A DNA stretch of 55,624 nt from Candidatus Aenigmatarchaeota archaeon (GTDB taxonomy: Archaea; Aenigmatarchaeota; Aenigmatarchaeia; PWEA01), in contig PWEA01000025.1 of the NCBI GenBank assembly GCA_003553905.1, forward strand, positions 1 through 55,624, written 5' to 3'. A model generated the notes under the pieces. It was not told where the DNA came from, did no database searches, and saw nothing but the letters and a program-made list of their open reading frames with translations. The position numbers and the translations under genes are program-made. This document shows positions 23,343 through 47,336 of this stretch, one piece after another; the stretch's first letter is position 1; every line of letters starts with the position of its first letter.

Positions 23343-23456
23343 GGGCCGGTAGTCTAGTGGCTATGACGCCACCCTTACAAGAACCCTTCAGAAAAACGTT
23401 CATTTGAGGGGAGCAAAGATAGGTGGAGATCGCAAGTTCGAATCTTGCTCGGCCCA
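23343..23456 (+). tRNA. tRNA-Val (TAC) with 41-nt intron
   Basis: Acceptor GGGCCGG (23343-23349) pairs with TCGGCCC (23449-23455), discriminator A. The anticodon stem CCACC (23369-23373) pairs with GGTGG (23422-23426). The anticodon TAC is at 23376-23378. An insertion of 41 nt (23380-23420) sits at the canonical 37/38 position, to be removed by the archaeal splicing endonuclease. T-arm GCAAG-TTCGAAT-CTTGC is normal. CCA is not encoded. Confidence 0.92.
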
Positions 23457-23690: not shown

Positions 23691-23805
23691 GCTCCTGTAG
23701 TCTAGTCCGGTCAAGGATACTGGCCTTTCGATTCCGAAAGGATTGAGCCGAAATGGCGATGAAAGAAGAAAGCCAGTGACCCGGGTTCGAATCCCGGCGG
23801 GAGCA
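23691..23805 (+). tRNA. tRNA-Glu (TTC) with 40-nt intron
   Basis: Acceptor GCTCCTG (23691-23697) pairs with CGGGAGC (23798-23804), discriminator A. The anticodon stem CTGGC (23720-23724) pairs with GCCAG (23772-23776); anticodon TTC at 23727-23729. The 40-nt insertion 23731-23770 is at position 37/38. Without it the tRNA is 75 nt. T-arm CCGGG-TTCGAAT-CCCGG is intact. Confidence 0.93.
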
Positions 23806-24313: not shown

Positions 24314-24419
24314 GCGGGGGTACCCAAGTGGTCAAAGGGGCTAGATTCCTGCAAAAGGAAAGCCAAGCTTAGGACCTAGTGGTTTAGTACCTTCGCAGGT
24401 TCGAATCCTGCCCCCCGCA
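24314..24419 (+). tRNA. tRNA-Leu (TAG) with 22-nt non-canonical intron
   Basis: Acceptor GCGGGGG (24314-24320) pairs with CCCCCGC (24412-24418), discriminator A; long variable arm as in Leu. A continuous reading gives no valid anticodon arm. Removing 24345-24366 joins CTAG to GCTTAGGACCTAG, giving a perfect CTAGG/CCTAG stem and loop CTTAGGA with anticodon TAG (24370-24372). The intron is thus between positions 30 and 31. Its ends fit a bulge-helix-bulge: GGCT pairs with AGCC, flanked by the bulges AGA and AAG, with a TTCC/GGAA inner hairpin. The intron-less tRNA-Leu(CAG) at 32556 supports the mature form. Confidence 0.88.
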
Positions 24420-25720: not shown

Positions 25721-26893
25721 TCATTTATTGAGCATCCGTATACCCAACTCGTCGGATACACCTTCGTTTTTTTGTTCTGGGTTTTTAGAAGAGTTTTTTT
25801 CCTGGGATCTTGGACCCAGTATGTAAGGCGATTTGACTCCTGTGATTATAGCTATTACTTGCATACTTCCTTCGTACTCTGGAACAACTCTGGCGCCCCA
25901 TATTACCTGTGCCTGTGGATCCAACTGCTTCGATATTGATTCACCGATTTCGTTTATCTCATCCAGTTTGAGATCCTCGCCACCAATTACCTGAATTATT
26001 GCACCATCCGCTCCCTCGTACTTCATATCAAGCAATGGATGGTTCATGGCCTTCTGTGTTGCTTCTTCTGCCCTGCTACTTGAATCCGCCTCACCTATGC
26101 CTATTGAAGCTACGCCACCGTCTTTCATTATGGTCTTGACATCGGCGTAATCCAGGTTCACGAGCGAAGGCTGGGTTATTGTTTCACTTATCCCTTTGAT
26201 CATCGTTGAGATCAGTTCGTCGGCCACAGCAAAGGCCTGTTTTACAGGTAGATCACCGGCATAGTTGAGAAGTCTCTGGTTTTCTATCGCTATAACAGTG
26301 TCTGTAACCTTTCTCATTCTTTTGAGACCTTCTTCGGCCTTGACTATTCTCGTACCTTCCATCTTGAAAGGCATCGTAACTGCTGCCAGTACTATAGCTC
26401 CTTCGTTGTTTGCCATCTCAGCAACAACCGGAGCAGCTCCTGTGCCTGTTCCTCCACCAAGACCGCATGTAATAAAGACCATATCTGCGTCCTTAAGCTC
26501 TTCGCGAATCTCTCTCTGCGACTCCTCGGCAGACTTCTTACCTACTTCTGGTTTGCCGCCGGCACCTAAGCCTTTGGTAGTCTCTCGGCCTATTAACATC
26601 TTTTTGTCAGCATTTGAGGCACTCAGGTGTGAAGCATCTGTGTTAAGTGCCAAGGTTTCGGCACCATCTATCCCCATTTCTGTAAGTGTGGTGATAGTAT
26701 TGTTACCAGCTCCGCCTACTCCTACCACCTTTATCTGAGCCTGATTAATGTCTATATCAAACTCATCCTCCACTTCCTGGTGATCTATGCCGTCAGCCCC
26801 CCTAGGCAAGTTATGCACAGAATCATTGTTTTTTTGTTCTTTTTCTGATTTTTCGAAGTTTCTTTCAAAAGCGTTTTGAATTACGGAATCCAT
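25721..26893 (-). CDS. ftsZ: Cell division protein FtsZ
   Basis: Tubulin-like GTPase that forms the division ring. Motifs are VGVGGAGNNTI near residue 60, the tubulin signature GGGTGTGAAP, and AVADELISTMIKGISETI; the C-terminus ends DELGIRMLNK, a likely SepF/partner-binding tail after a variable linker. The ATG at 26893 was chosen; the TTG 12 nt upstream touches the AGGAGG ribosome site directly and so is unlikely. The N-terminal 45 residues are hydrophilic and Asn/Glu-rich. The 5' region is unusually long and structured (see 26957-27120), and a C-rich tract and hairpin follow the gene. Confidence 0.96.
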   Translation of the reverse strand: MDSVIQNAFERNFEKSEKEQKNNDSVHNLPRGADGIDHQEVEDEFDIDINQAQIKVVGVGGAGNNTITTLTEMGIDGAETLALNTDASHLSASNADKKMLIGRETTKGLGAGGKPEVGKKSAEESQREIREELKDADMVFITCGLGGGTGTGAAPVVAEMANNEGAIVLAAVTMPFKMEGTRIVKAEEGLKRMRKVTDTVIAIENQRLLNYAGDLPVKQAFAVADELISTMIKGISETITQPSLVNLDYADVKTIMKDGGVASIGIGEADSSSRAEEATQKAMNHPLLDMKYEGADGAIIQVIGGEDLKLDEINEIGESISKQLDPQAQVIWGARVVPEYEGSMQVIAIITGVKSPYILGPRSQEKNSSKNPEQKNEGVSDELGIRMLNK

Positions 26894-26956
26894 TTTTTTG
26901 TTCAACCTCCTTTATTATGTTTTTTGAAATATGTTTTTCAACATCCAAATCTTTTT

Positions 26957-27120
26957 AAGGTTTCATACGAAACCTTCTATTGCCCAAGAAATAGTTTCAG
27001 ATAAGTCTAACTCGCATAAGAAATCTGGTCTGCAAACTTGCCCAAGTTTGCGTGATTTCGGTTCGAATGCCCAACTTCCAACCGATGCCCAGTCGGATGG
27101 AAAATCGACTATACGTTATT
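26957..27120 (-). ncRNA. Structured ftsZ leader or independent RNA with TGGGCA-loop hairpins
   Basis: This gap of about 390 bp has no gene but dense inverted repeats. From high to low coordinate on the minus strand: TTCC/GGAA plus CCGA/TCGG hairpin (27076-27102), GGTT-GAA/TTC-AACC hairpin (27060-27083, exclusive with the previous), an 8-bp perfect GCAAACTT/AAGTTTGC hairpin (27032-27051) inside GAAATC/GATTTC (27020-27059), CTATT/AATAG (26977-26994), and an 8-bp perfect AAGGTTTC/GAAACCTT hairpin (26957-26976). On the minus strand each of the first four loops carries TGGGCA. A TATA element at 27145-27154 would start this RNA near 27120. It matches no RNA family I recognise. Confidence 0.6.
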
Positions 27121-27144
27121 ACTATTCTAACATTTTAAGTTATA

Positions 27145-27154
27145 CTTTATAAAG
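27145..27154 (-). promoter_or_regulatory. TATA box for the ftsZ leader RNA
   Basis: CTTTATAAAG preceded on the minus strand by purine-rich GGGAAAG (BRE-like). The box is a palindrome, so it could also act on the plus strand. A second minus-strand candidate, CCTTAAAAAG near 26951-26960, could drive a short-leader ftsZ transcript instead. Confidence 0.5.
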
Positions 27155-27283
27155 CTTTCCCTTGATATCAAATAAATCAACTGTATAAAATATATGTTAA
27201 TCTATACATATCAGGGGTCTTAGAAATCGTGTTTCCATTTTTATAAATTCAGAAATCTATTTAGTAGCGAAAGGTGTGGACAA
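27155..27283. other. Intergenic region upstream of gatC
   Basis: AT-rich. Contains an ATATGT/ACATAT inverted repeat (27192-27211) and a TATA-like TTTTTATAAATT at about 27238-27249, 35-46 nt before the gatC ATG. No gene seen. Confidence 0.5.
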
Positions 27284-47228: not shown

Positions 47229-47336
47229 GCCTCGGTGGCTCAGAGGTAGAGCGCGTCCTTGGTAGGAAGACCGGGATAATCTCGAGTATTCACAGAAAGG
47301 ACGAGGTCGCGGGTTCAAATCCCGCCCGAGGCTCCA
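47229..47336 (+). tRNA. tRNA-Thr (GGT) with 33-nt intron
   Basis: Acceptor GCCTCGG (47229-47235) pairs with CCGAGGC (47326-47332), discriminator T, CCA encoded. Anticodon stem CGTCC (47254-47258) pairs with GGACG (47299-47303); anticodon GGT at 47261-47263. The intron 47265-47297 lies at position 37/38. It starts 6 nt after a protein-gene stop codon. Confidence 0.92.

Follow-up and report, generated by a model that had tools for sequence, protein, structure and literature searches.

Antisense RNAs that set the copy number of bacterial plasmids usually present one to three unlike loops and are themselves plasmid-borne, and RNAs that bind CsrA/RsmA, such as CsrB and RsmZ, carry many hairpins with a G-G loop motif, CsrA-type proteins binding GGA loops. 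In plasmid antisense systems, YUNR is a rule for loop-loop recognition and speeds pairing (PMC4485353). StfZ, an Escherichia coli RNA that is antisense in cis to ftsZ, was reported to lower FtsZ upon overexpression, and loop kissing has been proposed for it (PMC9628754). In haloarchaea, CdrS and CdrL, protein regulators acting on DNA, control ftsZ2 (PMC7439475). For a leader RNA of an archaeal ftsZ, we found nothing in the full-text literature, in which coverage of subscription papers is limited.

Here, we describe a row of covarying hairpins with lineage-specific loop words, confined between two facing promoter-like sites upstream of ftsZ in a Candidatus Aenigmatarchaeota archaeon, an arrangement that suggests a previously unreported antisense-RNA control of cell division. 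The window, meaning the whole stretch of 55,624 nucleotides that was analysed, belongs to a 702-kb genome placed through its FtsZ relatives. The closest named relatives, with 94% FtsZ identity, are MAGs of the T1Sed10/B1Sed10 series, which we take to be of soda-lake sediment origin; sister contigs are PWHK01000004.1 and PWIB01000008.1. A class-wide FtsZ search gave a match in 138 of 156 genomes, and the regions upstream of these ftsZ genes were fetched and oriented, with 126 long enough for most tests.

The locus resembles StfZ in that an antisense RNA would arise from the region upstream of ftsZ. In contrast to the archaeal array, StfZ is bacterial, its loops take in both the ribosome site and the start codon, no repeated-word hairpin array has been reported for it, and there is no known sequence relation between the two. 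Plasmid copy-number systems likewise have mirror-image hairpins from one DNA stretch and YUNR in the recognition loop, but the ftsZ array is chromosomal and archaeal and repeats one word up to six times. CsrB and RsmZ also show a G-G motif on many hairpins, whereas ftsZ leaders differ in their words from one lineage to another, with GGG or GGC frequent (GGACA loops occur in families f20, f23 and f26, and GGGCA and GGGGGA in the window and elsewhere, respectively). CdrS and CdrL would share gene-specific control of an archaeal ftsZ and differ as DNA-acting proteins, CdrS not being found in DPANN (PMC7439475).

The features of the locus are collected in Table 1. A gene-free gap noted previously before ftsZ is present (26894-27283), although it is not ftsZ's alone but common to the divergent gatC, in whose place the sister genomes carry a different divergent gene. 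Both perfect 8-bp stems reported in the initial annotation exist, as do its four TGGGCA cores, all on the minus strand (26981-26986, 27039-27044, 27068-27073 and 27086-27091). The proposal that all four are apical loops needs correction, as they are not all clean in one fold and the two 5'-most hairpins share bases; similarly, the same word does recur on different stems, but one of the two perfect hairpins lacks it. The stem at 27032-27051 reads GCAAACTT GGGC AAGTTTGC. Folding of the array exceeded that of shuffles modestly on the minus strand (z -2.0 to -2.3) and more strongly on the plus strand (z -3.4). A search of the 702-kb genome returned no TGGGCA pairs 10-40 nt apart besides the ftsZ array, and Rfam covariance models run against the window matched tRNAs only, with no family for the array.

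Table 1. Features of the ftsZ locus in the window, in order of position; promoters and RNA start are predictions.
Feature	Position	Strand	Basis or remark
ftsZ	25721..26893	-	390 aa, ATG at 26893; Pfam Tubulin 1.2e-47, FtsZ_C 1.8e-31
Shine-Dalgarno GGAGG of ftsZ	26906..26910	-	sequence
AT-rich element ATATGTTTTTC (class consensus ATATATTTT), upstream of antisense BRE	26929..26939	+	position logo; found before tfb promoters too
Antisense promoter, BRE-like CCAAATC and TATA-like TTTTTAAG, pointing away from ftsZ	26945..26959	+	score 10.3
Perfect 8-bp hairpin without the word, directly downstream of antisense TATA	26957..26976	strand-neutral	AAGGTTTC GTAT GAAACCTT
Hairpin, word TTGGGCA at 26981-26987	26977..26994	-	stem kept only in part among relatives
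Predicted antisense RNA start	26981..26990	+	inferred from TATA distance and TTCT/AGAA position bias
Hairpin GCAAACUU-GGGC-AAGUUUGC, word TTGGGCA at 27039-27045	27032..27051	-	perfect 8-bp stem
Alternative hairpin, word TTGGGCA at 27068-27074	27059..27084	-	read from sequence; one internal mismatch; overlaps hairpin 27078-27100
Hairpin, word CTGGGCA at 27086-27092, core CCGA-CTGGGCA-TCGG	27078..27100	-	invariant in four genomes
Sense promoter, BRE GGGAAAGC and TATA TTTATAAA (TATA 27146-27153)	27146..27161	-	score 17.3; predicted start near 27123
gatC, divergent neighbour in the window's genome	27284..27565	+	Pfam GatC

The repeated TGGGCA hairpins are confirmed as real and extend well beyond the window. 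Between three and six copies of the word are kept in four genomes of the genus and in three of another family of the same order, which excludes an array arising by chance. CCATCCGACTGGGCATCGGTTGG is unchanged in the four genus genomes, each with three or four words, and the second family places three to six TGGGC-type words on different stems. Upstream of the ftsZ2 paralogue, used as a negative control within the genus, we detected no TGGGC. The genus alignment revealed two-sided changes at three pairs, a covariation that is modest alone because most alignment columns are invariant. In the hairpin at 27032-27051, one two-sided change turns A-U into G-C in a single genome (G004), while the arms of the hairpin at 26957-26976 are invariant within the genus and family f5 has another hairpin at the same place; the word of the alternative hairpin becomes CTGGGTA in G003.

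Structure and shared loops are also evident across the class. Counted without regard to strand, ftsZ leaders contain 176 perfect stems of at least 6 bp, as against 56.5 (sd 7.1) in dinucleotide shuffles. Their loops bear GG in 81 cases (11.6 expected) and CC in 13 (5.3 expected), and a 5-mer is common to at least two loops of one leader in 30 of 126 leaders compared with 6 expected; the same test on the region from -450 to -300 yielded 2 of 118. The word itself depends on lineage: UUGGGCA in f1, f3 and f5; CUGGACA in f20, f23 and f26; UUGGGGGA in f28, f30 and f31; UUGGAAC or UUGGGAC in f13; and CCCCCA in a few leaders. Many leaders have no clear array, including most of f16 and f32.

Covariation was assessed using all 17 distinct CTGGACA copies in leaders, not preselected for hairpins, with six flanking bases per side. 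The flanks formed 5.59 pairs on average versus 2.76 with permuted flanks (z 9.0), and 16 of the 17 copies were closed by at least five of six flanking pairs (2 expected) on stems that varied, revealing strong covariation of the CUGGACA hairpins. Flank pairing was also seen for TTGGGC[AG] (z 5.1) and TGGGGG (z 4.6), as opposed to 0.9 and -1.7 for reversed control words. These z values are optimistic because related genomes were counted as independent save for the removal of identical contexts, although the pairing effect at CTGGACA is very large despite this kinship. By contrast, only 5 of 37 TTGGGC[AG] copies had at least five pairs as 7-nt loops, and many of them, some in the window, therefore lie outside strong hairpins with 7-nt loops. 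The initial annotation had been staked on relatives showing compensatory changes and conserved loops, and both are found.

Several simpler readings of the repeats were considered and rejected. By reasoning, neither the CA that follows GGG, nor the paired stems, nor loops of the CUGGACA type would be needed for a G-quadruplex built from the four GGG runs; also on reasoning only, the words do not fit one anticodon loop, as T-box-like pairing with a tRNA anticodon would have it. A small plus-strand protein from frame 26931-27152 is contradicted by stops or shifts that break the frame in G001 and G003, and by an ATG upstream of the antisense TATA.

Over the five positions outside GG, word identity is 0.54 within a leader, 0.40 between genera of a family and 0.36 between families, so that copies on different stems of one leader are more alike than those of related genera. 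Two RNAs acting purely in cis would not depend on a common word, since every loop already complements its antisense counterpart, whereas any-to-any kissing or a trans partner would depend on it. The uniformity within leaders therefore makes a trans-acting RNA-binding protein the main and a serious rival: a lineage-specific protein would read the loop word on several hairpins of the ftsZ message and control translation or decay, and the facing promoter would be incidental. A uniform word is what one trans-acting partner would lead us to expect, and the preponderance of GG over CC (81 to 13) places GG in sense-strand loops of most lineages. However, the words diverge widely (UUGGGCA, CUGGACA, UUGGAAC and UUGGGGGA), up to CCCCCA in a few leaders, which is a large shift for a protein to follow, word pairs occur only at ftsZ in the window's genome, and the conserved antisense promoter would be left unexplained. 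We consider this protein-binding leader unlikely, though far from negligible.

Promoter-like sites flank the array on both sides. The TATA box proposed at 27145-27154 as the promoter of the array RNA does coincide with a strong predicted BRE/TATA. Across the class, sense BRE/TATA sites cluster at -300 to -175 from the ATG. In f13 loci (L045, L064, L060, L058 and others), repeated TTCCACANGAAAT-like sites stand directly upstream of the sense TATA and resemble a DNA operator array.

The second TATA-like element, near 26955, had been suggested to drive ftsZ separately. This is not supported: on the antisense strand, relatives carry CGAAATCTTTTTAA and the window CCAAATCTTTTTAA, and similar sites elsewhere stand before opposite-strand genes. 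The site belongs to a near-universal element of the class, TTTAAAAAGnTTTCG-N7-AAAATATAT, located 25-150 nt before ftsZ, which on the opposite strand reads ATATATTTT-N-CGAAAtCTTTTTAAA, matching an upstream element, BRE and TATA. A sequence-only model of the element matches best at ftsZ in most class genomes, partly by construction, and other readable sites precede opposite-strand genes, including tfb (identified by eye from its zinc-ribbon start) in G125, G128, G130 and G145. Rigid spacing, the lack of consensus pairing and these off-target sites indicate that the element is an opposite-strand promoter; on the same evidence we rejected both a structured RNA or riboswitch core and a second sense promoter of ftsZ.

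We scored these sites with a general BRE/TATA matrix, written from general knowledge and untrained, against a simple base shuffle. The antisense site reaches 10.3 in the window and 12.8 in three sister genomes, with 95% of shuffles at 9.3. Scores of at least 9.3 were obtained for 74 of 124 ftsZ leaders versus 9 of 50 window genes, a set that includes ftsZ. Antisense sites of the class cluster at -150 to -25 from the ATG, and an antisense-strand start at AGAA would agree with the T-rich positions some 28-35 nt from the antisense TATA. In the window, the antisense BRE is without its G (CCAAA); at about 26948 it has TTTGGAT in place of the TTTCGA of three sister genomes, and is therefore weaker than theirs. 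Among nearest upstream frames, 51 are divergent and 50 co-directional, so the antisense promoter serves no fixed neighbour, which led us to reject a promoter of the divergent gene. By its sequence features, the element at 26945-26959 is a predicted class-wide opposite-strand promoter.

Two further observations concern this site. An inverted repeat flanks the antisense BRE/TATA, with arms at about -22 to -17 and +5 to +14 of TTTCG (about 26940-26975 in the window; z 7.1 versus permuted partners); the arms differ among genera, the register shifts, and the repeat may represent an operator or, alternatively, a hairpin close to the ribosome site. At tfb and other promoters (L250, L252, L254, L257 and L259), an ATATATT-like element precedes CGAAA by 5-7 nt and is perhaps a general upstream promoter element of the class.

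The array is confined to the interval between the two sites. In the 41 leaders with both, which are separated by a median of 157 nt, GG-loop hairpins occur at 6.97 per kb between the promoters, 0.2 upstream and 0.91 downstream. This supports one hairpin array being shared by two convergent transcripts, as predicted from these sites. Class-wide, the folding advantage of the array region over shuffles lies mainly on the antisense strand, where z averages -2.57, as opposed to a mean of -1.33 on the sense strand (Wilcoxon 7e-8); an upstream control region gave 0.02. Part of this excess may reflect composition, since G and T are more abundant on the sense strand and shuffled versions of it fold well. 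YUNR is present in 87 of 176 sense loops (49%) and 53 antisense loops, compared to 20 of 56 (35%) in shuffles, and G-U versus A-C next pairs, at 30 to 22, did not settle the strand.

Promoters on both sides, together with T-rich tracts that follow the array on the sense strand, would also suit an independent small RNA that starts at either promoter, ends in or just past the array and acts in trans through its loop word, ftsZ being a mere neighbour. Several identical loops are apt for a multi-site antisense RNA, yet the module accompanies ftsZ even as the gene upstream varies freely, the best site for the promoter element in most class genomes is the one at ftsZ, and no second array was found in the word-using genomes G000, G010 and G011; we judge such an RNA rather improbable. 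Short directional sites repeated three to seven times between promoters are common operators, and the word is reversed in a few lineages (CCCCCA), as might be expected were the words duplex-DNA sites for a transcription factor. The copies, however, sit in loops of varied yet self-complementary stems, for which a duplex-binding factor has no need, making this reading very unlikely.

The best explanation, which we advance tentatively and at somewhat less than even confidence, is a cis-antisense control module of ftsZ in which two transcripts meet by loop kissing and FtsZ output is lowered. The sense promoter would give an ftsZ message whose leader is about 230 nt long, the array forming its first two thirds, and the promoter opposite to this target would transcribe an antisense RNA back through the array, giving two RNAs with mirror-image hairpins. 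By analogy with plasmid systems, we infer that first contact would be the kissing of short loops, the sense loops carrying YUNR (UUGG, CUGG) with a U-turn. RNA pairing or polymerase collision would then leave less ftsZ message or less translation. With one word in every loop, any sense hairpin could recognise any antisense hairpin. Genome-wide searches of G000, G010 and G011 located close word pairs at ftsZ only, and no regulon is therefore needed. A regulatory RNA tied to ftsZ, as first proposed, agrees with the conserved array and its predicted promoters.

If true, such a module would represent RNA-based, ftsZ-specific control common to many genera of one class. A broader possibility, to which we give rather less credence than to an even chance, is that these are class-wide archaeal ftsZ-control RNAs whose loop word is lineage-specific and changes jointly in a leader, a partner following it, either an antisense RNA with any-to-any recognition or a co-evolving RNA-binding protein. 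That would be a form of cell-division control distinct from the CdrS type, and an unusual example of RNA loop recognition evolving in concert. The shift of the word as a set between lineages would be a natural experiment in RNA recognition, and the module offers exact start sites, loops and compensatory changes for testing.

Beyond the class, loci labelled Micrarchaeum, Altiarchaeota or DPANN (L157 and L159-L164) have a distant ftsZ with upstream hairpins sharing loops (CTGGTAA, CCCC-rich), and L157 has an antisense BRE/TATA too, at -65. Elsewhere in the window, Rfam matched four long tRNAs missed by ARAGORN (23343-23456, 23691-23805, 24314-24419 and 47229-47333), which are probably intron-containing tRNAs; three of them lie close together, beside a small histone-like frame.
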